Below, piece by piece: positions 1-19,448 of a stretch of 64,000 nucleotides of DNA; position 1 is the first letter of the stretch; the number at the start of each line of letters is the position of its first letter. This stretch comes from Mesorhizobium sp. GTDB lineage: Bacteria; Pseudomonadota; Alphaproteobacteria; Rhizobiales; Rhizobiaceae. A program made the position numbers and the translations under genes. The stretch spans positions 1 to 64,000 of the forward strand of contig NZ_JAFKIC010000107.1 of NCBI RefSeq assembly GCF_017306585.1, written 5' to 3'. Under the pieces are notes generated by a model. That model did no database searches, had not been told where the DNA came from, and saw only the letters and a list, made by a program, of their open reading frames with translations.

Positions 1-107
1 GGCGCGACCGGCAATTGCGGATAGGCCACCAGCCCGGCGGCGAGCAGGCCGAACGTCAGCAGGGTCGTCGCCACCGGCCGCCGGATGAAGGGAACCGAGA
101 GGTTCAT
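1..107 (-). CDS. RND efflux pump inner-membrane subunit, MdtC-like (5' end only)
   Basis: Only the first 35 codons are inside the window; the gene runs off the left edge. The N-terminus ([17 protein letters not shown]) is the cytoplasmic start and first membrane helix typical of RND multidrug pump subunits. Its ATG overlaps the stop of the preceding pump gene in an ATGA arrangement (104-107), so the two are translationally coupled. Two RND subunits in a row after an adaptor gene is the MdtABC layout, in which MdtB and MdtC form a mixed trimer. The assignment to the MdtC position rests on this order. Confidence 0.75.
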
Positions 108-3100
108 GGCCTGGCGTCCGCACCATGGGGGCGGGGAGATTTGGGGGGACGGACAGTTTTGGAGGCGCGGGGAAGATCCGGCTGGACGCCGCGCAGCCGG
201 TTCGAAAGCCGGTCGAACCAGAGATAGATCACCGGCGTCGTGAACAGCGTCAGCAACTGGCTGAGCAGCAGGCCGCCGACGATGGTGACGCCCAGGGGAT
301 GGCGCAATTCCGAGCCGACGCCGGTGCCGAGCATCAGCGGCAACGCTCCCAGCATGGCAGCCAGCGTGGTCATCAGGATCGGGCGGAAGCGCAGCAGGCA
401 GGCCTGGTAGATCGCCTCGCGCGGCGTCTTGCCCTCGTTGCGTTGCGCGTCCAGCGCGAAGTCGATCATCATGATGGCGTTCTTCTTGACGACGCCGATC
501 AGCAGGATGATGCCGATGATCGAGATGATGGTCAGATCCTGGCCGGCGATCATCAGCGCCAGCAGCGCGCCGATGCCGGCCGAGGGCAGGGTCGACAGGA
601 TGGTGATCGGGTGGATGAAGCTCTCATAGAGCACGCCGAGCACGATGTAGACCGTCACCACGGCGGCCAGGATCAGGAACAGCGTGTTGTCGAGCGAGGC
701 CTGGAAGGCGCGCGCCGCGCCCTGGAAGCTGGTGATGATGCTGAGCGGCATGCCGATGTCGGCCTGCGCCTGCTCGATCGCCGTCACGGCTTCGCCGAGC
801 GATGCGCCGGGGGCGAGGTTGAACGAGACGGTGGCGGCCGGAAACTGCCCCATATGGGTGATCTGCAGCGGCGTGGTGGTGACGTGGGTGCTCGCCACCA
901 CCGACAAGGGGATCGGTGCGCCGCCCGTCGACGACGGCAGGTAGACGGAGGAAAGCGCCTTCAGCGAATCCTGTTCAGAGGGAGCGGCTTCGAGGATGAC
1001 GCGATACTGGCTGGATGTGGTGTAGATGGTCGAGACCATGCGCTGGCCGAACGCGTCGTAAAGCGCGTTGTCGACGGTCGCCGGCGTGATGCCGAAGCGG
1101 GCGGCCTGATCGCGGTCGATGTCGACGAAGACGGCAAGGCCGCTGTTCGACAGGTCGCTAGCGACATCGGCGAGTTGCGGCAACGTGTTCAGCCTGGCGA
1201 GCAGCTTCGGCGTCCACTCGTTGAGCTCGTCCGCATTGGCGTCCTGGAGCACGAATTGATACTGGGTGCGGCTGACCTGGCCGTCGATGGTGAGGTCCTG
1301 TACCGGTTGCATGTAGAGGGTGACGCCGGCCACCGCGCCGGCCTCCTCCTTCAGCCGCGCGATGACGTCGGTGATGTCGGCGGTGCGCTGCTCGTGCGGC
1401 TTGAGGTTGATCAGGATGCGGCCGACATTGAGCGTGGTGTTGGTGCCGTCGACGCCGATGAAGGACGACAGGCTGTCGACGTCGGGGTCTTTCAGGATGA
1501 TGGCGGCCAGTTGCTGCTGGCGGTCGGCCATGGCGGCAAAGGAGATCGACTGCGGCGCTTCCGTGATGGCCTGGATGACGCCGGTGTCCTGGACCGGGAA
1601 AAAGCCCTTGGGGATGACCACGTAGAGGAAAGCTGTGAGCACAAGGGTGGCCGCGGCGACGACCAGCATCAGCGTCTGGCGGTCGAGCACCCAGGTCAGC
1701 GCCCGGCCGTAGCCGCGGATCACCCAATCGAAGAAGTCGTGGCTGGCGCGCTGCAGGGCGTTCTCGTGCACCGCTTCCAATGGCTTGAGCAGCTTGGCGC
1801 AGGCCATTGGCACCAGGGTCAGCGACACCACAGCCGAGATCAGGATGGTGGTGGCGAGCGTGATCGAAAACTCGCGGAACAGCCGGCCGACGACATCGCC
1901 CATGAACAGAAGCGGGATCAGCACGGCAATCAGCGAGACGGTCAGCGAGATGATGGTGAAGCCGATCTGCTGCGACCCCTTCAGCGCCGCCTGCAACGGT
2001 GTGTCGCCTTCCTCGACATAGCGGGCGACGTTCTCGATGACGACGATGGCGTCGTCGACAACGAAGCCGGTGGCTATGGTCAGCGCCATCAGCGACAGAT
2101 TGTCGAGACTGAAGCCGAACAGATACATTACGCCCAGCGTGCCGACCAGCGACAGGGGAACCGAGAGGCTCGGGATGAGCGTGGCGTGCGCGCTGCGCAG
2201 GAAGACGAAAATGACCAGAACCACCAGGATGATGGCGAGCGTCAGCTCGTATTCCACGTCGCGCACCGAGGCGCGGATGGTGGTGGTGCGGTCGGTCAGC
2301 ACCTTGACGTCGACGGCGCTCGGCAGCGAGGCCTGGAGCTGCGGCAGCAGCGCCTTGATGCGATCGACCACCTCGATGACATTGGCGCCGGGCTGGCGCT
2401 GGATGTTGAGGATGATCGCCGGGGTCTCGTTCATCCAGGCGGCGAGCCGGTTGTTTTCCGTCGCATCGATCACATCGGCCACGTCCGTCAGCCGCACCGG
2501 GGCGCCGTTCCTGTAGGCGATGATCAGCGAGCGGTATTCGTCGGCGCTCTTCAGCTGGTCGTTGGCGTTGATGGTGTAGGCGCGCGAGGGGCCGTCGAAA
2601 TTGCCTTTCGGCGTGTTGACATTGGCGCTGCCCAGCGTGGTGCGCAGGTCGTCGAGGTTGAGGCCGTAGGCGGCGAGCTTGCGCGGATCGGCCTGGACAC
2701 GCACGGCTGGGCGCTGGCCGCCCGAGAGACTGACGAGGCCGACGCCCGGCAATTGCGATATCTTCTGCGCCAGCCGCGTGTCGGCAAGCTGCTGCACGTC
2801 GCGCAGCGGCATGGTGGCGGAGGTCAGGCCGAGCGTCAGCACCGGCGCGTCGGCCGGATTGACCTTGGCGTAGATCGGCGGCGCCGGCAGGTCGGCGGGC
2901 AAGAGATTGCCGGCGGCGTTGATGGCGGCCTGCACTTCCTGCTCGGCGACATCGAGCGAGATCGCCAGGCTGAACTGCAGCGTGATGACGGAGGATCCGG
3001 CCGAGCTCACCGAGTTCATCTGGTTGAGGTTGGCGATCTGGCCGAGCTGGACCTCCAGCGGCGCGGTGACAGAGGAGGTCATCACGTCGGGGCTGGCGCC

Positions 3101-3256
3101 GGGATAGAAGGTCTGCACCTGGATCGTCGGATAGTCGACCTCGGGCAGGGCCGAGACCGGGAGATAGCGGTAGGCGAGCAGGCCCGACAGCATGATGGCG
3201 ACCATGAACAACGATGTCGCCACCGGCCGCAGGATAAAGGCGCGCGACGGGCTCAT
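104..3256 (-). CDS. RND multidrug efflux permease, MdtB-like
   Basis: This 1050-residue protein has the usual length of HAE1-family RND pumps, which export drugs or other amphiphiles by proton antiport across the inner membrane. It shows the conserved start (first helix near residues 10-30), the periplasmic [10 protein letters not shown] segment, and the TM4 proton-relay motif [13 protein letters not shown] near residue 400, where the two aspartates are expected. The C-terminal half repeats the pattern ([13 protein letters not shown]). It overlaps the adaptor gene upstream and the MdtC-like gene downstream, each by 4 bp (ATGA). The substrate is not predictable. The C-terminus ends in a basic, proline-rich tail. 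Confidence 0.9.
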
Positions 3257-4719
3257 TGCTGCTGCCCGGACTCCGGCTGTCCTGATCCTTGCTGTCCGGA
3301 TTGGGCCGCATCCGGATGCCGGTGCTTGTGGACCTGGTGCTTGTGGGTTGCGCCATCAGTTCCCTGCCCGTCGGAGGGTGCGTCGGTCTGCGCCGGCGCC
3401 TGCGCCGGTGGCGCGGTCTGATTTCCGGCCTGGGCTGGCGCCGCCTGGCTGGTGCCCTGGGCGGGCGCTGCCGCCTGGCTTGTGCCCTGCGCCGGCGCGG
3501 AGGCCTGCGCGGCCGGCGCCTGGCCGTCCTGGCGCAGGTTGATCGTGGCGCCGTCGCGCAGCTTGTCGGCGCCGTCGACGACGACACGGTCGCCGGGGTT
3601 CAGCCCGGACGCGATCTCGACGCGCTCGCCATTGGTGACGCCGAGCGCCACCTTGCGCACGGAGACGGTGCTGTCGGGATTGACCAGGTAGACGAATGTG
3701 CCGGGCAGGCCGCGCTGGATCGCGGCGATCGGCGCGATCGCCACATCCTTGTGCTCGTCGACGAGAAGCTCGACGTTGACGAACTGGTTGGGATAGAGGA
3801 GGCGCTGGTCGTTGGCGAAGCTGGCCCGCAGCTTGATGGTTCCGGTGCTCGGGTCGATCTGGCTGTCGAAGGTTTCGAGCTGGCCGTCGGCGAGCTTCTT
3901 GGTTCCGGCGCGGTCGAAGGCGGTTACGGGCAAGGTGGCGCCCTGCTGCATGCGCTGCGCGATCGCCGGCAGTTCGTCCTCGGGTACGTTGAACAGCACA
4001 CTGATCGGCTGGATGCGGGTGATGACGACGATGCCGTTGGCGTCACCCGGCGTCACGTAGTTGCCTTCGTCCACCTGGCGCAGGCCGGCCCGACCGTCCG
4101 TGGGCGACAGGATGCGGCAGTTGTCGAGATTGACCGTGGCGGACTGGATCAAGGCCTTGTCGTATTCGATCGTACCCGCGTCCTGCCCGACCAGGGCGAC
4201 CTGGGCGTCATAGGCCTGGTGCGTCACCGCCCCCTGGTCGACCAGCGTCTTGTCGCGCGCGAGGTCGAGCTGGGCATCGTTCAGCATGGCCTGGTCGCGG
4301 GCAAGCTGGCCCTGCGCCTGGGCGAGGGCCGCCTGGTAGGGGCGGGGATCGATCTGCGCCAGCAGATCGCCCTTCTTGACGTCCTGGCCTTCCTTGAAAT
4401 TCACCTGGAGGAGCGGGCCGGTAACCTGCGTCTTGACCGTGACGGTGGAGAGCGAGGTTACGGTTCCCAGCGCACCGAGACTGACGTCTATCGTGCCCTT
4501 GTCGATGGTGGCGGCGCCGATCGACATGGGCTGCGCGTTGCGCCGGTTGCCCTGTTGTTTCGGAACCGCCTGCGGCCGCTCGTAGAGATAGGCGCCGCCG
4601 GCGGCGACGATGGCGATGAAGATCAGCCACGGAATCCAACCGCGCGAGCGGCGTTGCGCGACGGTCGTCTGCAGGGGCATTTCCAATTGCTGGTCCATGG
4701 CGGCATCTTTCAACCCCAT
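3253..4719 (-). CDS. RND periplasmic adaptor (membrane fusion protein), MdtA-like
   Basis: This 488-residue adaptor links an RND pump to an outer-membrane channel. One N-terminal membrane anchor lies near residues 30-48. It is followed by the biotinyl-lipoyl half motif ([20 protein letters not shown]), an alpha-helical hairpin, a second lipoyl half and beta-barrel domains. Starts are possible at TTG 4722, ATG 4719 or ATG 4698, and none has a strong ribosome site. The C-terminus is unusual: about 90 residues rich in Ala, Pro and Gln with repeated [10 protein letters not shown] units, then a His-rich stretch ([11 protein letters not shown]). No outer-membrane factor gene is visible in the window. 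Confidence 0.88.
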
Positions 4720-4840
4720 CAACCAATATGACTGAACCCCGGCGAAGTCGAATTAACAGTTGGACAGGTTCGGCGCGCCCTCGCGGACCGCTCAAGCGCC
4801 CGTGATTGCTGCGATTGCGGCCGGCAGCGCCCTTCGCAAG

Positions 4841-5599
4841 CTACATGCGCATCAGCAGGCCGCCATCGACGGCAAGCTCGATCCCTGTGATGTAGCTCGC
4901 GGCGTCGGAGAGCAGGAAGAGCGCCGCATTGGCCATGTCCTGCGGCGTGCCGATCCGGCCGAGCGGGGCGTAGCTGGCCACCGCCGAGCGCTTCTCTTCC
5001 GTGTCCCAGCGCGCCTGCAACGGCGTCAGCGCCATGCCCGGGCAGATGGCGTTGGAGCGGATGCGCTCGCCGGCAAGCTGCATGGCGAGCGATTTCGACA
5101 GCGCGCAGACACCGGCCTTCGATGCCTGATAGGCGTCCTGCGGATTGGCGTCGCCGCGATACCACTGGATGGTCGAGAAATGCACCATGGCGCCGCCACG
5201 CCCGCCGGCGCGCATGTGCGGCACCACCGAGCGTGCGGTGTGGACGAAGGATTTCAAATTGATGTTGAAGACCTCGTCCCAGACGCCGAGGTCCATGTCG
5301 AGCGCCGACCTGTCCCGGCCGAACCACAGCACGCCGGCGACATTGGCGAGATAGTCGATGCCGCCGCGCTCGCGGCCGGCAGTGCCGACGACCTGCTCGA
5401 CGAAGGCAGCGTCGGTGAGATCGCCCTGGGCGAAGGTGAGCCTGTCGTCATAGGCGGCGAGCGAGGACGGGCGAGCCTTGACGTCGATGGCGGTGACGGA
5501 GGCGCCGGCATCGAGCAGCGCCAGCGTGATCGCCTCGCCCATGCCGCCGCCGGCGCCGGCGACGACCGCGTGCCTGCCGGTGAAATCGTAAGCGATCAT
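4841..5599 (-). CDS. short-chain dehydrogenase/reductase
   Basis: This 252-residue classical SDR should oxidise an alcohol with NAD(P). The cofactor loop VAGAGGGMG is near residues 13-21, and the NVAG-like segment (LANVAG) and the catalytic YQASK are present. ATG 5599 was chosen because a GAGGGGG-type ribosome site lies just upstream; a longer frame to 5644 lacks one. It is divergent from the aldehyde dehydrogenase gene at 5754, and a palindrome shared with the livG promoter lies between them. I infer it may supply the alcohol-to-aldehyde step before that enzyme. The substrate is not shown by sequence. Confidence 0.85.
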   Translation of the reverse strand: MIAYDFTGRHAVVAGAGGGMGEAITLALLDAGASVTAIDVKARPSSLAAYDDRLTFAQGDLTDAAFVEQVVGTAGRERGGIDYLANVAGVLWFGRDRSALDMDLGVWDEVFNINLKSFVHTARSVVPHMRAGGRGGAMVHFSTIQWYRGDANPQDAYQASKAGVCALSKSLAMQLAGERIRSNAICPGMALTPLQARWDTEEKRSAVASYAPLGRIGTPQDMANAALFLLSDAASYITGIELAVDGGLLMRM

Positions 5600-5685
5600 C
5601 TGAACCCCCTCATGTGCTGCCGCCGATGCGTTATCGCCGGACAATAGGGGCGGACCAGAAATCCATCAAGCCGTATTAGAAAAAA

Positions 5686-5702
5686 TTTGCCAAAATGGAA
5701 AA
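5686..5702. promoter_or_regulatory. putative operator, copy 1, in the SDR/ALDH divergent promoter
   Basis: TTTGC-N7-GAAAA, with spacer CAAAATG. The same arrangement occurs at 8664-8680 (TTTTC-N7-GAAAA, spacer TAAAATG). It sits 52 bp before the ALDH start and 87 bp before the SDR start. Sharing between two promoters flanking the XRE-cupin gene makes that regulator the natural candidate. Binding is inferred. Confidence 0.5.
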
Positions 5703-5753
5703 TAGCGGTATCGTGCCGCCAATGACCTCTCATCAAGGACGGATTTCGCAATC

Positions 5754-7163
5754 ATGAACCTGCACACCGGCGCGCGGACGTTTTCGGTGACTTCTCCGGT
5801 CGACGGCTCGACCTATGCGACGCGCTCCTACGCGGACGGCGCGGCGATCGAGGCCGCGCTTATCCGGGCACGGGCGGCCCTGCCGTCCTGGCGGCGGATG
5901 GCGCTCGCCGACCGCCTGGCGATCCTGCTGCTTTTCGGCGAGGAGATGAAGGCGCGCGCGACGCCGCTGGCCGACATGGTGGCCTGGCAGATCGGTCGGC
6001 CGCTGTGGCAGGCCGACGAGACGCCGCGCCTGGCGCTGGTCGGGGAACTGCTTGCCGATGTGGCGCCGCAAACGCTGGCCGACATGCCCTATCCTTCGGA
6101 CGAAAACATTCGCCGTTATGCAAGGCCGGTCGCCGGCGGCCTGCACCTGTCGATCTGCGCCTGGAATTACCCCACCGCCATGCTCGGCTATCTCGTCACC
6201 GCGCCGCTCGCCGCCGGCAATGTCGTGATCTTCAAGCATTCGCCGCAGACGCCGCTGATCGCGGAGGTGGCAGAGGAGGCTTTCCGCGCCGCAGGCGGTC
6301 CCGAGGGTGTGTTCCAGAGCCTGCATCTCGACCATGCAGATGCCGAGAAGCTGATCGCGTCGGGCGCGTTCAACGCGGTGAATTTCATTGGCTCGGTCAA
6401 TGGCGGAAGGCGCGTCCACGCCGCCGCCGCCGGCACTTTCACGCAGGTGCATCTCGAACTTGGCGGCAAGGATCCGACCTATGTCAGGGCCGATGCCGAT
6501 CTCGATGCCACGATCCCGCAGATCGCCGAAGGCACCTATTCCAATGCCGGCCAGTCCTGCTGCTCGGTCGAGCGCATCTATGTCGACAAAGCGATCCATG
6601 ACCGCTTCGTCGAGGCCCTGGTCGCCGAGACGGCGAAGTGGACCGTCGGCCATCCCTTCGACGAGAAGCCGATGGTCGGCCCGGTGGTGCGGGCAAGTGC
6701 CGCCGACACAATTCGCGGTCTCACGGAGAGCGCGGTGCGGGCAGGCGCGCGGCGGCTGATGCCGGGGGATGGCGCGCTGAAGGCCTCGGGCCTCGGCGCC
6801 GCCTATGTCGCGCCGGAGGTGCTGGTGGGGGTGGATCACACCATGCAGATCATGCGCGACGAACTGTTCGGGCCGGTGGCCTGCGTGCAGGCGGTCGGCG
6901 GCGATGACGAAGCCATCAGTTTGATGAACGACAGCGATTTCGGCCTGAGCGCCTCGATCTGGACCCGGGATATCGAGCGTGGCGTGGCGCTGCTCGACGA
7001 GGTCGAGGCCGGCACCGTCTATCTCAACCGCTGCGACCATGCGGACCTGCATCTGCCCTGGGGCGGCATCAAGAATTCCGGCCTCGGCCGCACCAATGGC
7101 CGCGCCGGGCTGGCGGAAGCGACGGCGGCGAAATCCTACCATATCCGTTCGGTCATCGGCTGA
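5754..7163 (+). CDS. NAD(P)-dependent aldehyde dehydrogenase
   Basis: At 469 residues this is a standard ALDH that oxidises an aldehyde to an acid. It shows the substrate/cofactor segment SICAWNYPTAM, the general-base glutamate in LELGGKDP, and the nucleophile in GQSCCSVERIYV (Cys269 by count). The C-terminal half has the expected DELFGPV and PWGGIKNSGLGR motifs. It is the first gene of a run ALDH, amidohydrolase, XRE-cupin regulator, with 16 bp to the next gene. PuuC of the putrescine pathway is an ALDH in a similar setting, but the substrate here is not known. Family is certain, role inferred. Confidence 0.9.
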   Translation: MNLHTGARTFSVTSPVDGSTYATRSYADGAAIEAALIRARAALPSWRRMALADRLAILLLFGEEMKARATPLADMVAWQIGRPLWQADETPRLALVGELLADVAPQTLADMPYPSDENIRRYARPVAGGLHLSICAWNYPTAMLGYLVTAPLAAGNVVIFKHSPQTPLIAEVAEEAFRAAGGPEGVFQSLHLDHADAEKLIASGAFNAVNFIGSVNGGRRVHAAAAGTFTQVHLELGGKDPTYVRADADLDATIPQIAEGTYSNAGQSCCSVERIYVDKAIHDRFVEALVAETAKWTVGHPFDEKPMVGPVVRASAADTIRGLTESAVRAGARRLMPGDGALKASGLGAAYVAPEVLVGVDHTMQIMRDELFGPVACVQAVGGDDEAISLMNDSDFGLSASIWTRDIERGVALLDEVEAGTVYLNRCDHADLHLPWGGIKNSGLGRTNGRAGLAEATAAKSYHIRSVIG

Positions 7164-7179
7164 CCGCGAGGTGAACCAG

Positions 7180-7983
7180 ATGGACGCCGCAAGCCTTGCA
7201 GGACTTGACGATGCGGCCATCGCCGCGCTGGCGGCGGCGAGCGTCGAACTGCTGGGGATGGAGGCGGAAAGCCCCTATCTGCTGATCGCCGAACATGCCG
7301 GCAATCGCATCCCCCAGCCGTGGCGGGACCTTGGATTGGCGCTTCCCTATCTCGGCACGCATTTCGCCGTCGACATCGGCGTCGATGCGCTGACGCGGCG
7401 GCTGTCGCGGACATTGCGGGCGCCGGCGGTGGTCGCGCACTATTCGCGGCTGTTCCTCGACTACAACAGGCCATCGACCGAATGGGATTTCATGCGTCCG
7501 GACCTTGGCGGCATCCCGGTCCCTGGCAATCTGGCGCCAGATGCCGTGGACGTGGAATTGCGCAGGCGGGTCGGCTGGGCGCCGCTCGAACAGGCGATCG
7601 CCGAGGCGGCCGCCGGCAGACGGGCGCTGATCTCCGTGCATTCCTTCACGCCGGTAATGGGTGGCGTCAGGCGCGATGTCGATATCGGCATATTGTGGCG
7701 AGAACAGTCCCCCTTCGTCACCTCGGTGCTCAAGACGCTTGGCGCTATGGGCGCGCGGGCGGGCTTCAGGATCGGCGACAACGAGCCCTATGACTGGCGC
7801 CAGGCGATCGGCTACACGCTGAACCGGCACGGGCTGGAGCAGGGCCGGCCCTGCCTCTATCTCGAAGTCCGCAACGACCTGCTTTCCGATCCGGAAACAT
7901 TCGAGCGCGTCAGCACCACGCTCGAGGCTGCGTTTGCCACCGTCGCGATGTCGCTATGGCCGAAACAAGCTATAGCCGTCTAA
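7180..7983 (+). CDS. N-formylglutamate amidohydrolase-like protein
   Basis: This 267-residue protein belongs to the FGase/HutG-like amidohydrolase family (PF05013 type). Visible features are LLIAEHAGNRIP near residues 30-41, the SRLFLDYNRP segment with its conserved Asn-Arg, and VHSFTPV. Family members hydrolyse N-formylglutamate; no histidine-utilisation genes are present here. With a GS-like ligase and an ALDH in the same cluster, the plausible job is hydrolysis of a gamma-glutamyl amide or related N-acyl acid. That activity is inference. ATG 7180 follows a GAGGTG site; the frame stays open further upstream inside the ALDH gene. The end overlaps the regulator gene if that starts at 7956. 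Confidence 0.8.
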   Translation: MDAASLAGLDDAAIAALAAASVELLGMEAESPYLLIAEHAGNRIPQPWRDLGLALPYLGTHFAVDIGVDALTRRLSRTLRAPAVVAHYSRLFLDYNRPSTEWDFMRPDLGGIPVPGNLAPDAVDVELRRRVGWAPLEQAIAEAAAGRRALISVHSFTPVMGGVRRDVDIGILWREQSPFVTSVLKTLGAMGARAGFRIGDNEPYDWRQAIGYTLNRHGLEQGRPCLYLEVRNDLLSDPETFERVSTTLEAAFATVAMSLWPKQAIAV

Positions 7984-8639
7984 AAGCTGGACGCCCTAAG
8001 GCCACCCCGCTAGAGCTTGTCGAATTGGAAACACGACAGCCAAGGGCGTGGACGATGCAGGGCAATGTGGGCAGCAAGATCCGCGACGCGCGCAAGGAAC
8101 AGAACATCACGCTGCGCGACCTCAGCGAACGCTCCGGCCTTTCGGTCTCGCAACTGTCGAAGCTTGAGAACGGCAAGGCGCGCCTGACGGTCGATGTCGC
8201 GCTGATGATCGCCGGCGTGCTGCATGTGCCGGTGGCATCCTTCCTGTTCAGCCCCAAGCCCGGCATGCAGGCACGCCGCTCCATCACGCGCGCCGGCAGC
8301 GGCATACTGCACCAGGGCAACGCCATGGAATTCGAGGTGCTGTGCAGCGATTTCCGCGACAAGACCAATATTTTCTGGCGCGTCACGCTGCGGGCACGAA
8401 GCTTCGAAGAGAACGGCGGCTGGCGCAGCCATTCGGGCGAAGAGTTCATCCATGTGCTCAGCGGCAGCCTGGAACTGCACACGATCCACTATGATCCGAC
8501 GGTGCTGCAGCCCGGCGACAGCATCCTGTTCGACGGCGAGATGCAGCACGCCTACATCGCGCTCGGCGACCAGCCCGTCGTCATGCTGATGTCGAACACG
8601 GTGCCGCGCGACGGGCTGCCGCCTGGCGCAGGCGCTTGA
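7956..8639 (+). CDS. XRE-family regulator with C-terminal cupin (PuuR-like)
   Basis: An N-terminal helix-turn-helix (IRDARKEQNITLRDLSERSG, about residues 42-61, then LSVSQLSKLENGKARLT) is followed by a cupin domain (about 140-215; SGEEFIHVLSGSLEL, LQPGDSILFDGEMQHA). This is the architecture of PuuR, the repressor of putrescine utilisation, and of many amino-acid-related regulators in which the cupin senses the ligand. The start is uncertain: ATG 7956 overlaps the previous gene by 28 bp, and ATG 8055 would give a 194-residue protein still holding the whole HTH. Location between two copies of the same palindrome suggests local control. Confidence 0.85.
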   Translation: MAETSYSRLKAGRPKATPLELVELETRQPRAWTMQGNVGSKIRDARKEQNITLRDLSERSGLSVSQLSKLENGKARLTVDVALMIAGVLHVPVASFLFSPKPGMQARRSITRAGSGILHQGNAMEFEVLCSDFRDKTNIFWRVTLRARSFEENGGWRSHSGEEFIHVLSGSLELHTIHYDPTVLQPGDSILFDGEMQHAYIALGDQPVVMLMSNTVPRDGLPPGAGA

Positions 8640-8668
8640 CCCCGTCTTGGGTCCTCAAGAATATTTTC
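8635..8668 (+). terminator. imperfect stem-loop with T-rich tail after the XRE-cupin gene
   Basis: CTTGACCC pairs with GGGTC..CAAG around a short loop (a 2-base bulge on the right arm), followed by ATATTTTC. It starts on the stop codon and runs into the operator at 8664. It could separate the enzyme operon from the liv operon. Confidence 0.4.
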
Positions 8669-8680
8669 TAAAATGGAAAA
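8664..8680. promoter_or_regulatory. putative operator, copy 2, upstream of livG
   Basis: TTTTC-TAAAATG-GAAAA, a perfect 5-bp inverted repeat matching the element at 5686-5702, including AAAATG in the spacer. A further ATGGAAAAG half-site follows at 8692-8700. It lies about 90 bp before the livG start. The likely binder is the XRE-cupin protein encoded immediately upstream; this is inferred. Confidence 0.5.
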
Positions 8681-8771
8681 AAATGCTTGTTATGGAAAAG
8701 TCGGAGGTCTAGCATCCCTTTGACCGGCCGACAGGAGAAATAGCCATCGGCCGGGATGGGAGATGTGACCG

Positions 8772-9497
8772 ATGCTGTCGGTTGAGGCAGTCAGCAAGAC
8801 CTTTGGCGGCGTGCAGGCATTGCGCAATGCCTCGCTGTCGTGCGAGGCGGGGGAAATCCTCGGCCTGATCGGCCCCAATGGCGCCGGCAAGTCGACGCTG
8901 GTCAATGCCATTTCCGGTGTGCTCAGGCCCGACACCGGCAGTGTCAAACTGGCGGGCCAGGACATTACGGGGCGCGGTCCCGAACATTGCGCGCGGGCCG
9001 GGGTCGGCCGCACCTTCCAGACCATTCGCCTGTTCAAGGATCTGACCGTTCGCCAGAACGTCGAGGTCGCGCATATCACATGCCGGGCGGTGCGCCCGGA
9101 TGCAGCTGCGCGCATCGGCGTCGACCAATTGCTCGCCCAATATCAGCTGGACGGTTTTGCCGATGTTCCCGCAGGCACGCTTTCCTACGGCAGCCAGCGT
9201 CGGCTGGAAATCGCACGCGCGCTGGCGCTGGGGCCGTCGCTGATCCTGCTCGACGAACCGGCGGCCGGCCTCAACGAGGGCGAGTCGGAGACGCTGGCGA
9301 TCGCGATCGAGGGCATTCGCAGGGATGTCGGCTGCGCCACCATCGTGATCGATCACGACCTGCGCTTCATCAACCGGCTGTGCGACCGGCTCTGCGTCAT
9401 GGACCAGGGCCAGGTGATCGCATCGGGACAGACCGAGGAGGTGTGGCGCGATCCGCGTGTCATCGAGGTTTATGTCGGGCAGTCCGCGCCGGCGTGA
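8772..9497 (+). CDS. livG: branched-chain amino acid-type ABC importer ATPase, LivG-like
   Basis: This 241-residue ATPase has Walker A GPNGAGKST, the LivG-type signature LSYGSQRRLEIARAL, Walker B LILLDEPAAGLN and the switch histidine in VIDHD. Such subunits power HAAT-family importers of amino acids, amides and related compounds. It opens an unusual order, livG, binding protein, livF, livH, livM, followed by a GS-like ligase. This suggests the cargo is an amine or amide rather than leucine. A palindrome shared with the upstream enzyme operon lies in its promoter. Confidence 0.9.
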   Translation: MLSVEAVSKTFGGVQALRNASLSCEAGEILGLIGPNGAGKSTLVNAISGVLRPDTGSVKLAGQDITGRGPEHCARAGVGRTFQTIRLFKDLTVRQNVEVAHITCRAVRPDAAARIGVDQLLAQYQLDGFADVPAGTLSYGSQRRLEIARALALGPSLILLDEPAAGLNEGESETLAIAIEGIRRDVGCATIVIDHDLRFINRLCDRLCVMDQGQVIASGQTEEVWRDPRVIEVYVGQSAPA

Positions 9498-9539
9498 CGG
9501 CGCCCACAATACCAACAACAAGTAGGAGGAGGGGTTCGA

Positions 9540-10694
9540 ATGGAGAAGATGATTTTGGGGGCAGCGGTCGTCGCCGCAGGGCTTTTGCAGGTGACGCATG
9601 CCGGCGCCGCCGATCTGAAGATCGGCCTCGCCGTGGCGATGACCGGCACCTATGCGCCCTATAGCGAGGCCGAGGGCGCGCGCTGCATGGCCGATAAATT
9701 GAACAAGGCGGCCGCGGCAGGCGATCCCAAGGTCGAGCTGATGATCGAGGACAACAGGTCCGACCCGCAGCTCTCGGTTTCGCTCGGCCAGAAGTTCCTC
9801 GACGCCGGCGCGCAGATCATTACGGGCGTGCCGTTCCCTGACGCGCTCATCCCCACCGCGCAGATCGCCGCACCCTATGGCGCCACCGTGTTCTCGGCGC
9901 CGAACACGCAGCTCGAGATGCAGCAGGCCGGGCTCGATAATTTCATTGCCGGCGCGGTGCCCGATCCGATCAACGCGGCGGCGACCGCCAACGCTCTTTA
10001 CGGCAAGGGCGCGCGCACCGTGGCGCTGATGGTGTCGCCCGATGCCGGCTCCTATTCGGAGAAACTGCCGGAATGGTTCGGCGAGGTGTTCGAGCATCAG
10101 GGCGGCAAGGTCGTCGGCAAGTTCAACTACTCCTGGGGCACGACGGACTGGTCGCCGCAGATCGCCAGCATCAAGGCGCTGCCGCAGAAGCCCGACGCCA
10201 TCCACATTTGCGGCGTGCTGCCTGATATCGGCATCTTCATCCGCCAGTTGCGCGCCAATGGCTATGACGGCTGGGTCGCCGGCTGTGATGCCTTCGATGA
10301 CAAGTCGCTGGAAGGCACGGTCGGCAATCCGGCGTCGCTGGAGAAGGTGATGTTCGCCACCCATGGCGCGACCGGGATCGACAGCCCGATCGACAAGTTC
10401 CTCGCCCAGTGCAAGGCCGATGGCTACAAGATCAACGGCATCTTCGACGCGCTCGGCGCCGACATGGTGCAGATCAGCTACGAGGCGGCGAAGAAGTCGG
10501 GCACGGTCGAGCCGGCCGCCCTTCGTGAGGCGATCCGCGCGCCGGGCGGCTATCCAGGCACCACGGCGCCCACCATCTCCTTCGCCGAGAAGAAGGGCTA
10601 TCCGGTGAAAGCCGTGCCGGTGATGGGTTTCTCCGATGGCAAGCGGGTGCTGATCACCGACACGCCGCCGACCTTCGTCCCGGCGCTGAACTAG
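9540..10694 (+). CDS. ABC importer periplasmic binding protein, LivK/amide-binding type
   Basis: A 384-residue precursor with a signal peptide (about residues 1-23, cleavage after GAA), then the Peripla_BP_6 start DLKIGLAVAMTGTYAPY. It is the only substrate-binding component in this importer and so decides what the cluster imports. Relatives bind leucine, amides, urea and aromatic acids; the ligand cannot be read from sequence. A strong AGGAGGAGG ribosome site precedes the ATG. Placement between livG and livF is atypical but keeps all five importer genes together. Confidence 0.88.
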   Translation: MEKMILGAAVVAAGLLQVTHAGAADLKIGLAVAMTGTYAPYSEAEGARCMADKLNKAAAAGDPKVELMIEDNRSDPQLSVSLGQKFLDAGAQIITGVPFPDALIPTAQIAAPYGATVFSAPNTQLEMQQAGLDNFIAGAVPDPINAAATANALYGKGARTVALMVSPDAGSYSEKLPEWFGEVFEHQGGKVVGKFNYSWGTTDWSPQIASIKALPQKPDAIHICGVLPDIGIFIRQLRANGYDGWVAGCDAFDDKSLEGTVGNPASLEKVMFATHGATGIDSPIDKFLAQCKADGYKINGIFDALGADMVQISYEAAKKSGTVEPAALREAIRAPGGYPGTTAPTISFAEKKGYPVKAVPVMGFSDGKRVLITDTPPTFVPALN

Positions 10695-10740
10695 GGCAGG
10701 CGGGGGAAGTGATGATGGATCGAGCCTGGCAGGCCGCGTC

Positions 10741-11445
10741 GTGCTGAGCGTCGACAATCTGGTCGTGCGCTACGGCGCCGTGAGCGCGGTGCGCGACCTC
10801 AGCCTGAAGGTCGGGCGGGGCGAGCTTGTCGCCCTGCTCGGTCCCAACGGCGCTGGCAAGAGCTCGACCATCAACGCGCTGACCGGCCTGGTCACGCCGG
10901 CTTCCGGCCGCATCGTTCTCGACGGCCAGGACATTTCACGGGTCCGGACCGAGGATCGCATCCGGGCGGGCCTCACCTCGACGCCGGAGGGCCGGCACAT
11001 CTTCGCCAATCTGACGGTGGGCGAGAATTTGCGGCTGGGCGCGGCGACACGGCGCGATCCCAAGGGCGTGCGCGGCGATATCGACCGGTTCCTGGCGCTC
11101 TTTCCGGTGCTCTCGGAACGCTACGGGCAAGCGGCGGGCACGCTTTCGGGCGGCGAGCAGCAGATGCTTGCGATCTCCCGGTCGCTGATGTCGCGTCCGA
11201 AGCTGCTTCTGCTCGACGAACCGTCGCTGGGCCTTGCGCCGAAGATCGTGGAACGGATCTTCGACTTCATCGGCGAGCTCAAGCGGGAAGGGCTGACGCT
11301 GCTGGTGGTCGAGCAGAACGCCAGGCAGGCGCTGCGCTTCGCCGACCGGGTCTACGTCGTCAGCGCCGGCACGCTGCGTTACGAGGGGCCGCCCGCCGAG
11401 CTCGCCGACGAACACGGCCTCTTCAACCTCTATATTGGCGGGTAG
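10741..11445 (+). CDS. livF: branched-chain amino acid-type ABC importer ATPase, LivF-like
   Basis: This 234-residue ATPase starts at GTG 10741. Walker A GPNGAGKSS, signature LSGGEQQML, Walker B LLLLDEPSLGLAP and VVEQNARQAL are the LivF hallmarks; LivF has Glu-Gln where LivG has Asp-His. It pairs with the LivG-like subunit. The livH start follows 8 bp after its stop. Confidence 0.9.
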   Translation: MLSVDNLVVRYGAVSAVRDLSLKVGRGELVALLGPNGAGKSSTINALTGLVTPASGRIVLDGQDISRVRTEDRIRAGLTSTPEGRHIFANLTVGENLRLGAATRRDPKGVRGDIDRFLALFPVLSERYGQAAGTLSGGEQQMLAISRSLMSRPKLLLLDEPSLGLAPKIVERIFDFIGELKREGLTLLVVEQNARQALRFADRVYVVSAGTLRYEGPPAELADEHGLFNLYIGG

Positions 11446-11453
11446 GCGGCGAC

Positions 11454-12353
11454 ATGGACTATGCCTTGCAGCAGCTTCTCAACGCGCTTGCCTTCGGCGC
11501 GGAATATTCCCTGGTCGCGCTCGGCCTGGCTGTCGTGTTCTCGATCATGGGCCTGGTCAATTTCGCGCATGGCGAAATCATCGGCGTTTCCGCCTACAGC
11601 GTGTTCCTGGCCGCTGCGCTCGGGCTGACCTCGCCTGTCGTGGCCGTGCTGCTCGCCGTCGCCGCCGCCGCTCTCGCGGCCGTCGCCTTCGAACGCGTGG
11701 CGTTCCGGCCGGTGCGCTACGCACCGACCACGACCGGCCTGTTGACAGCCTTCGGCGTCTCGATCGTGGTGCAGAACCTGTTCATGCTGCTGATCTCGCC
11801 CAAGCCGCAATCGGTCTCGATCCTCAACGGGCTGAACCAGATGTGGTTCGTCGGTCCTTTCGCGGTGTCGTCGCTGCAGGTCATGGAACTGATCGTTTCC
11901 GGCCTCACCATCCTGGCGCTGGTGCTGTTCCTCAACCGCTCGACGCTCGGCCTCGCCATCCGCGCGGCGTCGCGCGATTTCGCCACGGTGCGGCTGATGG
12001 GCATCAAGGCCAACCGGGTGATCGCCACGGCTTTCGCCATCTCCGGCGCGCTGGCCGGCATCGCCGCCGTGTTCATCATCGCGCGGCGCGGCAGCGTCTC
12101 GCCTGATCTCGGCTTCAGCCTGGTGCTGAAGGCTTTCGTCGCCTGCGTCATCGGCGGTTTCGGCTCGCTGGCGGGAGCGGCAGCCGGCGGCATGCTGCTC
12201 GGCTTCATCGAGGTCGGCCTGCTCGTCGCCCTGCCGCAGGAATATGGAGGCTTCAAGGACGCGCTCACCTACGCGATCATCGTCGCGCTGCTGGTCTACC
12301 GGCCGGAAGGCCTGCTCGGCCAGCGGGTCGAACTCGGCGACAAGGAGATTTGA
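11454..12353 (+). CDS. livH: branched-chain amino acid-type ABC importer permease, LivH-like
   Basis: A 299-residue hydrophobic protein beginning MDYALQQLLNALAFGAEYSLVALGLAVVF, typical of LivH. It has about eight membrane segments and the cytoplasmic coupling region RAASRDFATVRLMGI that contacts the ATPases. It forms the transmembrane pore with LivM. The livM start follows the stop by one base, so the two are coupled. Confidence 0.9.
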   Translation: MDYALQQLLNALAFGAEYSLVALGLAVVFSIMGLVNFAHGEIIGVSAYSVFLAAALGLTSPVVAVLLAVAAAALAAVAFERVAFRPVRYAPTTTGLLTAFGVSIVVQNLFMLLISPKPQSVSILNGLNQMWFVGPFAVSSLQVMELIVSGLTILALVLFLNRSTLGLAIRAASRDFATVRLMGIKANRVIATAFAISGALAGIAAVFIIARRGSVSPDLGFSLVLKAFVACVIGGFGSLAGAAAGGMLLGFIEVGLLVALPQEYGGFKDALTYAIIVALLVYRPEGLLGQRVELGDKEI

Positions 12354-12354
12354 C

Positions 12355-13452
12355 GTGGCGAGATCAGACGTGGCGCAAGCAATCGAAAATACCGCGCCCT
12401 CCGCCGCTGTCGCGCAGCCAGGCAGTGCGATGATGCGCTCGCTGGTCGGCGGACTGGTGACGGCGCTGCCGGTGCTGGCGATCGGGTTGGCGATCCTGAA
12501 TTTCGCACCGACCTATTACACCTATCTGGCGCTCGGCGCCTTCGTGAACCTGATCGTCGTCGTCGGCCTGCAAGTGTTCATGGGCAATTCCAACATCGCC
12601 AATCTCGGCCACAGCGCCTTTGTCGGCCTCGGCGCCTATGGCGTGGCCATCCTGTCGACGCCGTTGGCGATGAAGAAACTGTCGATCCCCAACGCGCCGT
12701 TCGGCTTCGCGACGCTGCAGCTCGATCCGGTTTCCTCGGCGCTCATCGCGCTGATGGTGGTCGGCATCGTCGCCGCCGTCAGCGGCAAGGTGATCAGCCG
12801 GCTGTCGGGCGTGGCGGCGACCATCGTCAGCCTCGCCCTGCTGATCATCGTCCATTCGGTGTTTCTCAACTGGACCGACCTGTTCAAGGGCAACCAGGCC
12901 TTCTTCGGCATCCCCAAGGTGGTCGGCCTGCCCTGGATGCTGGTGTTCTCCGTGGTGGTGATCGTGGCGGCACGGCTGTTCAAGGATAGCCGCTGGGGCT
13001 TGCAGCTGAGGGCCAGCGCCCAGAGCCCGCAGGCGGCCGCCGCGCTTGGCATCGACGCCCGGCGCCTGCGGCTGATGTCATGGGTGCTGTCGGCGCTGAT
13101 CTGCGGCCTTGCCGGCGTGCTCTACGCCTATTTCGCCGGGACGATCAGCCCGAAGCTGTTCTACTTCCAGATGATCTTCAACACGCTGGCGATGCTGATC
13201 CTGGGCGGCATGGCGACGGTGACGGGCGCTGTGACCGGCGTGATCGTGCTGTCGGTCGGGCTGGAATTCATCCGCAGCATCGAATCCGGCGTGACCATCG
13301 GCGCTATCCAGCTGCCGCAACTGCTCGGCCTGTCCGGTGTGGCGCTCGGCGTCGTCATCGTGCTGTGCATGGCGTTCCGGCCAAGCGGCATCAGCGGCCG
13401 CCACGAGCTCGACGAACTCTTGTCGCGATTTTTCCGGCGCAACGCGAAATAG
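12355..13452 (+). CDS. livM: branched-chain amino acid-type ABC importer permease, LivM-like
   Basis: GTG 12355 was chosen because AAGGAG (12342-12347) lies 7 bases before it, giving 365 residues; the frame is open further upstream but overlaps livH. It has multiple membrane segments, the NIANLGHSAFVGLGAYG region and the coupling loop LRASAQSPQAAAALGID. The C-terminus FRPSGISGR is typical of LivM. It is followed after 32 bp by the GS-like ligase gene, which appears to be the last gene of the operon. Confidence 0.9.
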   Translation: MARSDVAQAIENTAPSAAVAQPGSAMMRSLVGGLVTALPVLAIGLAILNFAPTYYTYLALGAFVNLIVVVGLQVFMGNSNIANLGHSAFVGLGAYGVAILSTPLAMKKLSIPNAPFGFATLQLDPVSSALIALMVVGIVAAVSGKVISRLSGVAATIVSLALLIIVHSVFLNWTDLFKGNQAFFGIPKVVGLPWMLVFSVVVIVAARLFKDSRWGLQLRASAQSPQAAAALGIDARRLRLMSWVLSALICGLAGVLYAYFAGTISPKLFYFQMIFNTLAMLILGGMATVTGAVTGVIVLSVGLEFIRSIESGVTIGAIQLPQLLGLSGVALGVVIVLCMAFRPSGISGRHELDELLSRFFRRNAK

Positions 13453-13484
13453 CGGCGTCCGGTATTCTTGGTGGAGGACTGAAA

Positions 13485-14879
13485 GTGGAATTTGAGGACA
13501 AGGCCGCGGCTTACGCGCCCCAGCTCGAGGCGTTGCAGAAGAAACTCGCGGCAAACGGCGTCGAGTTCGTCGAGGTGCATACGGTCGACACGTCGGGCGC
13601 GTTCCGCTCCAAGATCGCGCCGCTGAAGCTCTCGACCTATGGCGAATCCATCAATGCCATTCTCTATTGCGTCACCCATGGCGACGGCCAGCCGCTGGGT
13701 GATGTCGCCTTCGCCTCGCCGAGCGCCAATGAGGAGAACGGCTTCCCCAACATCAAGGGCATCATCGATCCCGCGACGGTCGTCCAGCATGGCTGGAAGC
13801 CGAAATTCGCCTCCGGCATCACGTCCTCCTACATGCTTGACGGCGCGGTCTGTCCCTTCGATCCGCGCGGCGTGCTGGCCCGTGTAGAGCAACGCGCCAG
13901 GGCGCTCGGCTACGAGCCGATGGTCGCGCTCGAATATGAGTTCGGCATCTTCCACGCCGATCACGACCTGATGCGCGCCGGACGCTACCGCGAACTGAAG
14001 CCCTGGGGCCATTCGCTGATCAACTACGATCTGGTGCGCAGCGGCGAGTACCAGGATTTCGCCGCAGAGTTCATCACCCGCATGAAGAGCATCGGCATCG
14101 GCGTCGCCTCATTGGTCACCGAATACGGCTATGGCATGTATGAATACGCGCTGACGCCGAAGCCGGCGCTGCAGGCGGCCGATGATGCCATGCGCGCAAA
14201 ACTGCATCTGCGCGAACTCTGCGCCGAGCGCGGGCTGGTGGCCACCTTCATGACGCGCTTCCAGCCGCCGGGCAAGGAGAGCGCCTGCGGGGCGCACCAT
14301 CATGTCAGCCTGTGGCAGGACGGCAAGCCGTCCTTCGCAGCCGGCCCGAACCGACTGACGCCGGTGGCCGAGAAATTCCTGGCCGGCGTGCTCAAGCGGA
14401 TGCAGGAAACGCATCTCCTGTTCCGTCCGACAGTGAATTCCTATCGTCGTTTCGACCGTGGGGCGTGGTCGCCGGAAGATGTCGCCTGGGGGTTCGAGAA
14501 CCGCACCGCGCCGATCCGTGCCATTACGACGCCCAATGACGGCGCCTGCCGGCTGGAGCACCGCGCGCCGGGCGCCGACATCAATCCTTATCTCTCGATC
14601 GCCGCGATCCTCGCTGCGGGCTGCGAGGGCATCGAGAAGGATTTGCCGCTGGAGGCGCCGGTCACCTCAAACCTTGCCGATCTGGACAAACCGAAACTGC
14701 CGCGCACGCTCAACGCCTCGATCGAGGCTTTTGCTGCCTCCGATTTCTGCGCTGAAGCGTTCGGCGAGGCGTTCCGCGACAATTATGCCGAAAGCCGGCG
14801 GGCCGAACAGGCGGCGTTCGACGCCTGGCAGGCTTCGCACATCACCGATTTCGAATGGCAGCGCTATTTCGTCAGTTGA
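13485..14879 (+). CDS. glutamine synthetase-family ligase (probable gamma-glutamylamide synthetase)
   Basis: GTG 13485 has GGAGG 7 bases upstream and gives 464 residues. GS motifs are present: the metal-binding EYEFG segment, GAHHHVSLW (GxHxHxSLW type), NSYRRF, NRTAPIRAI and the RLEHRAPGADINPYLS substrate segment. True GlnA enzymes differ in these motifs and carry an adenylylation-site Tyr that is not obvious here. Family relatives such as PuuA, IpuC and GlnA4 ligate glutamate to putrescine, isopropylamine or ethanolamine. Being last in a Liv-type import operon, next to ALDH and hydrolase genes, supports amine glutamylation. Substrate unknown. Confidence 0.85.
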   Translation: MEFEDKAAAYAPQLEALQKKLAANGVEFVEVHTVDTSGAFRSKIAPLKLSTYGESINAILYCVTHGDGQPLGDVAFASPSANEENGFPNIKGIIDPATVVQHGWKPKFASGITSSYMLDGAVCPFDPRGVLARVEQRARALGYEPMVALEYEFGIFHADHDLMRAGRYRELKPWGHSLINYDLVRSGEYQDFAAEFITRMKSIGIGVASLVTEYGYGMYEYALTPKPALQAADDAMRAKLHLRELCAERGLVATFMTRFQPPGKESACGAHHHVSLWQDGKPSFAAGPNRLTPVAEKFLAGVLKRMQETHLLFRPTVNSYRRFDRGAWSPEDVAWGFENRTAPIRAITTPNDGACRLEHRAPGADINPYLSIAAILAAGCEGIEKDLPLEAPVTSNLADLDKPKLPRTLNASIEAFAASDFCAEAFGEAFRDNYAESRRAEQAAFDAWQASHITDFEWQRYFVS

Positions 14880-17848: not shown

Positions 17849-19405
17849 TCAGTTTTTGCTGTCCGTCATCCGAGCGAAGCTTTCCGCGACTGCCAAAACA
17901 GCGGCGTGAATCGGTCCTGCCGTGAGGCTTGGCAGGATCGAGGCGTCGACGACGAAGAGATTGTCGAGCGCCTTGAGCCGCAGATCGGCATCGACGGGGG
18001 CATCCGCGTCCTTGCCCATCCTGCAGGTGCCGCAGGGATGATGGTGGGTGATGACGGCCTTCGCTATGAAATCGTCGATGCTGCTCTTGTCCAGGCCCGC
18101 CGGCAAAAGTTCATGATCGCGCCATTCGCCGAGTTCGTCGTGATGGCCGATCTCTCTCGCCGCCGCCAGGGCCTGGCGAAACAGCGCCCGGTCACGGCCG
18201 GTCTGCAGATAGGCGGGATCGATGATCAGGCGATCGCCCAGTTCCGGTCCGCTGATGCGCACGCTGCCACGGCTCGTCGGATGGGTGATCCCGAAAAGCA
18301 GCGAGTAGGCCGTGCCGGCGGCGGGCGCCTCAAAACACTCCGAGACGATCGGAGCGATGCCGCAGCCGACGACGATCTCCGGCTGGCCGCCGGCCGTGAA
18401 GTCGCCGGCTCGCATATACGCCATCGATTCCGAGTGCTGAAGGCGCGATGGCGGAACCGGCTGGCGCGCGGCGTAAAGGTTGCCGGCACCAAGCAGATGG
18501 TCCTGAAGGTTGCGTCCGATATCGGGCATGTCGATCAGGCAATCCACGTTCGCGTCACGGAGCGTGTCTCGCGGGCCGATTCCTGAACGCATCAACAAGG
18601 CCGGGCTTTCCAGCGACCCGGCGCAAAGCACGATGCGGTCCGCGACGATTTCGGCGGGACCGTCCGGTCCAACCACCTCCAGTGTCCGGACCTTGTTGCC
18701 GTCGAGTTCGAGCCGGCGGACCCTGGATCCCCTGAGGATCGTCAGGTTGGCCCGGCTGCGGACCGTGGGCGTGAGCCAGGCATCCGCGACCGTCACCCGG
18801 CGACCGTCGCGAATGTTGAGGGAATTCGGGGTGACGCCGATCATCTGTCCGCTGTTGTGGCCCTCAAGGCGCGGCAGGCCGAGGGATGCACCGGCTTCGA
18901 TGAAGGCGCGCGCGACCGGGCTGACTTCGTCCGTCGGCAGATGGACCGGCATCGGCCCGCCCTTGCCGTAGAGACCATTGCCGCCGAGCGGATGATCCTC
19001 GTTGGCCTGGAAAGCGGGCAGCAGTCCGTCCCAGCTCCATCTGTTGTCGCCGGTCGCTTCGGCCCAGGCCTGGAAGTCCAGGGGATGACCGCGCATGTAG
19101 CCCATGGCGTGCAGGCAACTGGAGCCGCCCACCACCCGCCCGCGCGCCCAGTGATGCACGCGGCCCGCGGTGCCGGCTTGCGGCTCGGTGCGATAGTCCC
19201 AGTCGTAGCTGCGCCCCTGAAGCGCTGGCCAGGCGGCCGGGTTCCAGATGTCGGGGTCCGACGCCTCTTCGCCTGCCTCGATCAACAGGACGCGGCGGGC
19301 GGAATCCTCACTCAGTCTGGCAGCTAGCAACGCACCGGCCGAGCCGCCGCCGACGATGACGAGATCGGCGTGTTGTTTGCGCTCGGAATTGGCACTGCTC
19401 ATCAT
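17849..19405 (-). CDS. pyridoxine 4-oxidase (GMC flavoprotein)
   Basis: This 518-residue GMC oxidoreductase has the FAD loop VGGGSAGALLAARLSE, the second signature RGRVVGGSSCLHAMGYMRG and the active-site histidine in HHHPCGTCRMG; the usual C-terminal Asn position reads PIHAAV. In M. loti the FAD enzyme oxidising pyridoxine to pyridoxal with O2 is of this family and sits at this position, next to a GntR gene at the edge of the B6 cluster. Context is the main reason for the substrate call. Three start codons in a row (GTG 19408, ATG 19405, ATG 19402) make the first residues uncertain. Confidence 0.82.
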   Translation of the reverse strand: MMSSANSERKQHADLVIVGGGSAGALLAARLSEDSARRVLLIEAGEEASDPDIWNPAAWPALQGRSYDWDYRTEPQAGTAGRVHHWARGRVVGGSSCLHAMGYMRGHPLDFQAWAEATGDNRWSWDGLLPAFQANEDHPLGGNGLYGKGGPMPVHLPTDEVSPVARAFIEAGASLGLPRLEGHNSGQMIGVTPNSLNIRDGRRVTVADAWLTPTVRSRANLTILRGSRVRRLELDGNKVRTLEVVGPDGPAEIVADRIVLCAGSLESPALLMRSGIGPRDTLRDANVDCLIDMPDIGRNLQDHLLGAGNLYAARQPVPPSRLQHSESMAYMRAGDFTAGGQPEIVVGCGIAPIVSECFEAPAAGTAYSLLFGITHPTSRGSVRISGPELGDRLIIDPAYLQTGRDRALFRQALAAAREIGHHDELGEWRDHELLPAGLDKSSIDDFIAKAVITHHHPCGTCRMGKDADAPVDADLRLKALDNLFVVDASILPSLTAGPIHAAVLAVAESFARMTDSKN

Positions 19406-19448
19406 CACTCCATCTGGCGCTTGCTTGTCCGGGTGGCCGGCATGTCTG

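Follow-up and report, generated by a model that had tools for sequence, protein, structure and literature searches.

The closest described relatives of the gene cluster considered here are gamma-glutamylation routes for amines, above all the ethanolamine (Eto-type) pathway. The ethanolamine route of Chromohalobacter (C. salexigens) is tabulated as PF00120, PF00465, PF00171 and PF05013 proteins, and that of Streptomyces likewise (PMC9397018). Deletion and in vitro assay showed that Streptomyces GlnA4 glutamylates ethanolamine, and a dehydrogenase, an aldehyde dehydrogenase (ALDH) and an enzyme of the formylglutamate amidohydrolase (FGase) family are proposed to act downstream of it (PMC6529630). 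The Streptomyces dehydrogenase appears as a short-chain enzyme beside glnA4 in the gene map of that paper, yet beside PF00465 in the table of PMC9397018. Similarly, the Chromohalobacter route is termed an in silico prediction in PMC6529630, and demonstrated in Chromohalobacter and Agrobacterium in PMC10132767, where such an operon, TRAP importer included, is reported to be induced on phosphorylethanolamine in Phaeobacter. Here we analyse ten genes at positions 4841-14879 of a 64-kb stretch of Mesorhizobium DNA (the window), which is part of contig C24 of a 7.09-Mb genome. With a probability of about 0.53, they form a regulated cluster that degrades a small primary amino alcohol, probably not ethanolamine, by way of gamma-glutamylation, oxidation and hydrolysis. 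The proposed route is a variant of a known gamma-glutamylation pathway and differs in its ligase clade, Liv importer, regulator and operator. The first-pass annotation of this DNA went too far in calling the pathway undescribed, as an equivalent ethanolamine route is found in all three papers, and in treating the FGase-type hydrolase as a new replacement, as that PF05013 step is already tabulated or proposed for ethanolamine (PMC9397018, PMC6529630).

The cluster opens with a short-chain dehydrogenase/reductase (SDR) gene on the minus strand, divergent from the ALDH, FGase and XRE-cupin genes; the importer genes and a glutamine synthetase (GS)-like ligase gene follow on the plus strand:

4841..5644, minus strand: SDR-family dehydrogenase (PF13561, 182 bits; Y-x-x-x-K motif seen by eye; linked orthologue in all 30 complete loci among the 35 described below)
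5686..5702, no strand: putative operator TTTGCCAAAATGGAAAA, between the divergent SDR and ALDH genes, with one mismatch to TTTTCCANNNTGGAAAA
5754..7163, plus strand: ALDH (PF00171, 398 bits; below all cut-offs among the 25 NCBIfam matches listed)
7180..7983, plus strand: FGase-family metallohydrolase-like protein (PF05013, 104 bits against a cut-off of 28.9)
8055..8639, plus strand: XRE-cupin regulator (PF01381 and PF07883)
8664..8680, no strand: putative operator TTTTCTAAAATGGAAAA, upstream of livG
8772..9497, plus strand: LivG-type ATPase (PF00005; top NCBIfam matches UrtD and LivG, below cut-offs)
9540..10694, plus strand: Liv-type periplasmic binding protein (PF13458, 118 bits)
10741..11445, plus strand: LivF-type ATPase (PF00005)
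11454..12353, plus strand: LivH-type permease (PF02653)
12430..13452, plus strand: LivM-type permease (PF02653)
13485..14879, plus strand: GS-like ligase (PF00120, 262 bits; GTG start with GGAG upstream, by eye)

All ten genes are open reading frames in the window. Family calls are based on Pfam families and on NCBIfam models with their cut-offs, and among the NCBIfam matches listed none of the ten proteins reaches a cut-off. The true start of the SDR may be the ATG near 5599 rather than the annotated end, because the family match begins only at residue 21.

The cluster is real and conserved, and it is probably co-regulated. Scanning genome contigs with a ligase alignment confirmed 103 relatives, the best 80 of which were inspected for the ten genes, and linkage was counted over the 35 of these loci whose ligase shares 60% identity or more (L040-L073 and L078 in our locus numbering). 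The complete set is present in 30 of the 35, so that the co-location of a GS-family ligase, ALDH, FGase-family hydrolase, SDR, XRE-cupin protein and complete Liv importer noticed in the first-pass annotation is borne out by open reading frames, Pfam and relatives alike. Four incomplete loci (L041, L052, L062, L064) are interrupted by contig ends, and L069 has the SDR, ALDH, FGase, XRE and GS genes with no linked importer. Most of these loci belong to close Mesorhizobium kin and are therefore not independent. The ten genes are also found in Gemmobacter, Chachezhania, Taklimakanibacter, Rhizobium alvei and metagenome-assembled genomes (MAGs), and in L065-L068 the metabolic and importer halves are reordered relative to each other, yet adjacent. 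Within the genus the distribution is patchy, with a window-type ligase in 35 of 146 genomes, our own included, and the 12 best-ranked named relatives of the ligase are all Mesorhizobium. A GS search at E<=1e-100 gave 9 of 297 genomes in the order and 4 of 398 in the phylum, all four of the same genus, and a class-level search for the XRE regulator at E<=1e-38 gave only our own genome among 385.

Evidence for shared control comes from 17-base near-palindromes (TTTTCCA-N3-TGGAAAA) that lie in both expected promoter regions, between SDR and ALDH and between XRE and livG. Allowing two mismatches, TTTTCCANNNTGGAAAA has exactly two sites in the window against 0.04 expected; allowing one, it is found only at the cluster's two places in the whole genome, and a reversed-pattern control gave none. 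Among 26 distinct loci having both control regions in the same arrangement (L027 was dropped, being on the same contig as L070), 25 keep both sites within two mismatches, the exception being L078 with four and two. As a rough control, 44 stretches taken from upstream of GS genes, each 155 bases long, were 4 to 8 mismatches away from the pattern; the test regions measured 150-313 bases. L070 and L073, which are outside the genus, both preserve the arms, and in each of them one site has TTT as its spacer and the other AAA. Less favourably, in the rearranged loci two scans upstream of livG gave two-mismatch sites in L066 and L072 and 3-6 mismatches in L065, L067, L068 and L069. By its linkage, the XRE-cupin protein would be the binder of these palindromes. 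It scores 27.6 bits against a cut-off of 211 with the PuuR model NF007408, so of the earlier label 'PuuR-like' the XRE-cupin architecture stands and the PuuR identity does not.

The GS-like ligase falls far under the NCBIfam cut-offs of GlnA, type III GS and gamma-glutamylputrescine synthetase, with 174.7 bits against 650 for the PuuA equivalog NF045547. It was placed in a GS tree of 91 rows, built by a quick method from 110 extracted proteins with the window added and with 20 Mesorhizobium-type loci of L040-L063, L023 and L025 omitted. There it belongs to a 38-row clade (SH-aLRT 100) that is separate from the ethanolamine-type ligases (L120 and our own L141; 28-32% identity), so classed by gene content and similarity to the structure 5dm3, and from the IpuC-type ligases (L022, L021 and L124; about 31-33% identity). 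When aligned to our own GlnA1, the window ligase has Asn at the position of StGS Asp50 and Trp at that of Glu327, which we take to be the residue of the GYEAP loop in StGS numbering, and it retains E357, R359, H269 and H271. In a table of nine of the genome's own paralogues (L141, L142, L146 and L148-L153), which excludes two further PF00120 matches, GlnA1 (L148) alone retains both the Asp and the Glu. Because these ammonia-ligase residues are lost, the acceptor is likely to be an organic amine and not ammonia, and the earlier proposal to this effect agrees with the residues and with the separate clade. A similar loss of ammonia-site residues is described for the GoaS organic-amine ligases, where the flap residue is called Glu357 (PMC11335346). 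The GoaS enzymes NpaA1 and AtdA1 thus resemble the window ligase as GS-family members with these residues replaced, and, unlike it, serve aromatic amines upstream of a dioxygenase. No member of the window clade with an assayed substrate was encountered. The genome has 12 PF00120 matches, and to our knowledge the substrates of most GS-like ligases are not known.

Other members of the 38-row clade are found in different surroundings. Six loci (L019, L093, L099, L081, L109 and L030) combine such a ligase with a DUF1116 protein, SDRs and mostly an alpha/beta hydrolase, and L019, L030, L093 and L099 have a second GS-like ligase; these clusters are probably another amine pathway. In a Chromatiales MAG (L075:11570-14606), genes for a BKACE enzyme, a 3-hydroxyacyl-CoA dehydrogenase and an acyl-CoA dehydrogenase adjoin the ligase-clade gene, a set that we take to be reminiscent of carnitine breakdown.

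The FGase-family protein matched no NCBIfam model at E<=0.001. Its residues H39, D65, R90, D94, N96, R97, H154, N201 and E229 are intact and invariant in all 26 aligned family members, which include two of the genome's own paralogues labelled HutG-like. The AlphaFold model (pLDDT, the predicted local distance difference test, 94.7) matches best Atu2144 (2odf; E 4.5e-22, TM-score 0.81) and then the N-formylglutamate amidohydrolase 2q7s, followed by weaker matches to a poly-gamma-glutamate hydrolase (21dc; E 1.3e-5, TM-score only 0.44) and zinc carboxypeptidases. Atu2144 is thus the closest solved structure, and it scores 281 bits against the ethanolamine-type FGase of Aminobacter versus 101 bits against the window FGase. 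Of the six FGase genes in the genome, three have a GS-family gene no more than about 6 kb away, where rough arithmetic (12 GS genes, 7.09 Mb) would predict about 0.12 pairs. This proximity ties the FGase family to gamma-glutamyl chemistry, the reaction itself being a proposal. By similarity, contig C34 of the same genome (64000-83000, L142) holds a third cluster with GS and FGase genes, together with a class III aminotransferase, a very divergent GS-like protein as its GS member, an isochorismatase, an RpiR regulator and a Liv importer, and a Sulfitobacter dubius plasmid (L122) has similar content.

The remark in the first-pass annotation that a class I amidotransferase is lacking holds for the window cluster and fails for four relatives, where one lies beside the ligase or the regulator (L064 and L065, with the PRK09065 model above cut-off; L067 and L068, by similarity). 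In relatives outside Mesorhizobium these genes lie beside the ligase at L065:11414-12139 and L064:1749-2471. Such an enzyme could serve as an additional hydrolase or as a safety valve.

The proposed alcohol oxidation step can be compared with two clusters in which an SDR of the window type is absent. The XES5 plasmid (L018) and Shinella lacus (L074) each combine a ligase belonging to the 38-row clade with genes for FGase, ALDH, a GMC enzyme and an APC permease. The L018 GMC enzyme is nearest choline dehydrogenase (NF002550, 530 bits, below the cut-off of 605), and its ALDH is nearest the betaine aldehyde dehydrogenase and PuuC models, below cut-off. An exchange of the SDR for a choline-dehydrogenase-like GMC enzyme would be compatible with an alcohol-to-aldehyde step.

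Our inference, which covers each enzymatic step, the pathway's direction, the compound transported and the palindrome-binding protein, is as follows. The Liv-type importer would take up the amino alcohol, and the GS-like ligase would join it to glutamate at the expense of ATP to form a gamma-glutamyl amide. The SDR could then convert the hydroxyl of the glutamylated compound to an aldehyde and the ALDH the aldehyde to an acid, giving a gamma-glutamyl amino acid, which the FGase-family hydrolase would split into the amino acid and glutamate, so recovering the tag. The XRE-cupin protein would control both transcription units through the two TTTTCCA-N3-TGGAAAA copies, its cupin domain perhaps sensing the substrate or an intermediate. 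This sequence of glutamylation, two oxidations and FGase cleavage had been put forward in the first-pass annotation; it is still the best fit to the organic-amine ligase residues, the linkage, the operator-like pair and the GMC clusters, while its novelty in kind is lost.

The strongest competing explanation, although unlikely, is a second, redundant ethanolamine pathway, in which non-orthologous parts would carry out the reactions of the Eto-type cluster on its substrate. The reaction logic is shared: a GS-like ligase, an alcohol dehydrogenase, a PF00171 ALDH and a PF05013 amidohydrolase, the last two being linked to the ligase in the window as in Eto-type clusters, and the whole Pfam set agrees except for the dehydrogenase (PMC9397018). 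Even that difference narrows if the short-chain dehydrogenase named beside Streptomyces glnA4, whose product lies outside our tree, is considered (PMC6529630). However, the window ligase is of another clade and not orthologous to the ethanolamine-type ligases compared, at the low identity given above. Furthermore, the window cluster has an SDR in place of the PF00465 iron dehydrogenase of Chromohalobacter, a Liv ABC importer rather than the TRAP system of Phaeobacter or a permease, and an XRE-cupin regulator rather than RpiR.

The genome already has an ethanolamine-type cluster. Contig C149 encodes an iron-containing alcohol dehydrogenase, an ALDH, a GS, an amino-acid permease, an FGase and an RpiR-type regulator, which is the tabulated ethanolamine composition. 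Identities to Aminobacter pAA03 are 65% for the alcohol dehydrogenase, 57% for the ALDH, 64% for the GS, 43% for the FGase and 34% for the regulator. The C149 GS scores 568 bits with 5dm3, which we take to be the Chromohalobacter protein, and a GS of this type was found in 145 of 146 genomes of the genus, in a search for the ligase only. EutB was not found in our genome. Because an ethanolamine-type cluster is co-resident and its ligase is nearly universal in the genus, the window substrate is probably an amino alcohol other than ethanolamine, and ethanolamine itself is disfavoured. We know of no activity for the C149 cluster, and the argument therefore rests on family membership.

Less probable again is a different kind of amine (an alkylamine, polyamine or aromatic amine), with the SDR and ALDH acting on another group or after an unlinked oxidation. 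The window ligase shares about 31% identity with an IpuC-clade ligase, and plasmids of Aminobacter SR38 and Agrobacterium AT13, strains which we take to be atrazine degraders, carry homologues of the SDR (59-60%), likewise divergent, the ALDH (49%), the FGase (36%) and the XRE gene (46-48%), the last reversed in orientation relative to the window. The same plasmids have IpuC-clade GS, P450, ferredoxin and type 1 amidotransferase genes. An alanine racemase and an Lrp gene lie about 7 kb from the module in SR38, and an alanine dehydrogenase about 8.5 kb from ipuC on TC1 pTC2. The Ipu scheme passes through gamma-glutamyl-L-alaninol, with hydrolysis before alcohol oxidation (PMC6776027). For the favoured amino alcohol reading, this analogy weakly suggests alaninol-like compounds as the substrate of the plasmid module, and that of the window cluster may differ, identities being 36-60%. 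The Ipu pathway shares GS-like amine activation and an oxidised gamma-glutamyl intermediate with our proposal, whereas the window cluster is without P450 and ferredoxin and its ligase is outside the IpuC clade. The polyamine (Puu) pathway similarly shares a ligase, an ALDH, a hydrolase and an XRE-cupin regulator; the window cluster has no PuuB-type flavin oxidase or PuuD-type amidotransferase, and membership was rejected on the PuuA and PuuR model scores. What argues against another kind of amine is that the ten conserved genes include no oxygenase, amine oxidase or aminotransferase, and that L018 and L074 carry a choline-dehydrogenase-like enzyme.

Import of a ready-made conjugate (opine-like, N-acyl or gamma-glutamyl), with the GS-like enzyme in salvage, is improbable. 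The model of the binding protein (pLDDT 89.4) finds Liv-type proteins as its top solved folds, and these are mostly amino-acid-binding proteins, as that explanation would have it; however, where a catabolic cluster has an ATP-dependent ligase, the simplest role for it is to activate a free amine, as happens in the Puu, Ipu and Eto routes. In a profile alignment with LivJ-type proteins, the serine near residue 100 is replaced by Pro100-Asp101 and Asp250 is kept. Given the roles we presume for these LivJ pocket positions, this hints at a ligand without an alpha-carboxylate, a hint that was not used as support. Finally, ordinary nitrogen assimilation by a glutamine synthetase paralogue and an N-formylglutamate deformylase with unrelated neighbours, a very improbable reading with only the family names in its favour, is disfavoured by the lost ammonia-ligase residues and the conserved linkage and palindromes.

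Several observations weigh against an amino alcohol route with a substrate other than ethanolamine. The SDR family is too broad to prove hydroxyl oxidation. The clade separation is drawn without GlnA4 of S. coelicolor, for which a short-chain dehydrogenase is reported too; the best-ranked Streptomyces plasmid hit lies in a different neighbourhood. The clade members in L028, L029 and L077 are not accompanied by the SDR, ALDH and FGase set, of which L075 and L076, the latter a short contig, retain only an SDR; conversely, no GS lies beside the SDR-ALDH-FGase-XRE module in SR38 and AT13. The window FGase is no closer to an ethanolamine-type enzyme (39%) than to that of XES5 (42%), and in the four relatives mentioned above the gamma-glutamyl hydrolase proper might be the amidotransferase next to the FGase module. 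Moreover, the SDR/ALDH region of L064-L069 and L072 holds only versions of the palindrome with 3-5 mismatches, and L065-L068 and L072 have matches with 1-2 mismatches inside the XRE coding region.

The surroundings of the cluster were inspected by eye. Genes for an RND efflux pump and its adaptor (104-4722, minus strand) directly adjoin it, and a GMC-oxidoreductase-like gene (17849-19408), about 3 kb downstream, apparently belongs to another operon.

No account of the window cluster was recognised in the literature covered, most subscription papers being outside its scope. It is conceivable, at somewhat less than even odds, that the cluster is dedicated to an amino alcohol for which no such degradation is known (for example alaninol, serinol or 3-aminopropanol), combining a ligase clade in which we met no assayed member, Liv import and a new pair of XRE-cupin regulator and operator, with a homologous module on Ipu-carrying plasmids. 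In this cluster, one clade of GS-like ligases comes with a transporter, a complete set of candidate downstream enzymes and a defined pair of operator-like sites. If the proposal is true, the SDR-ALDH-FGase-XRE module of the plasmids could convert gamma-glutamyl-alaninol directly to alanine and glutamate, and, if the substrate is alaninol-like, this would also suggest that isopropylamine-type pollutants can reach alanine by a shorter path than in the published scheme, where hydrolysis comes first.

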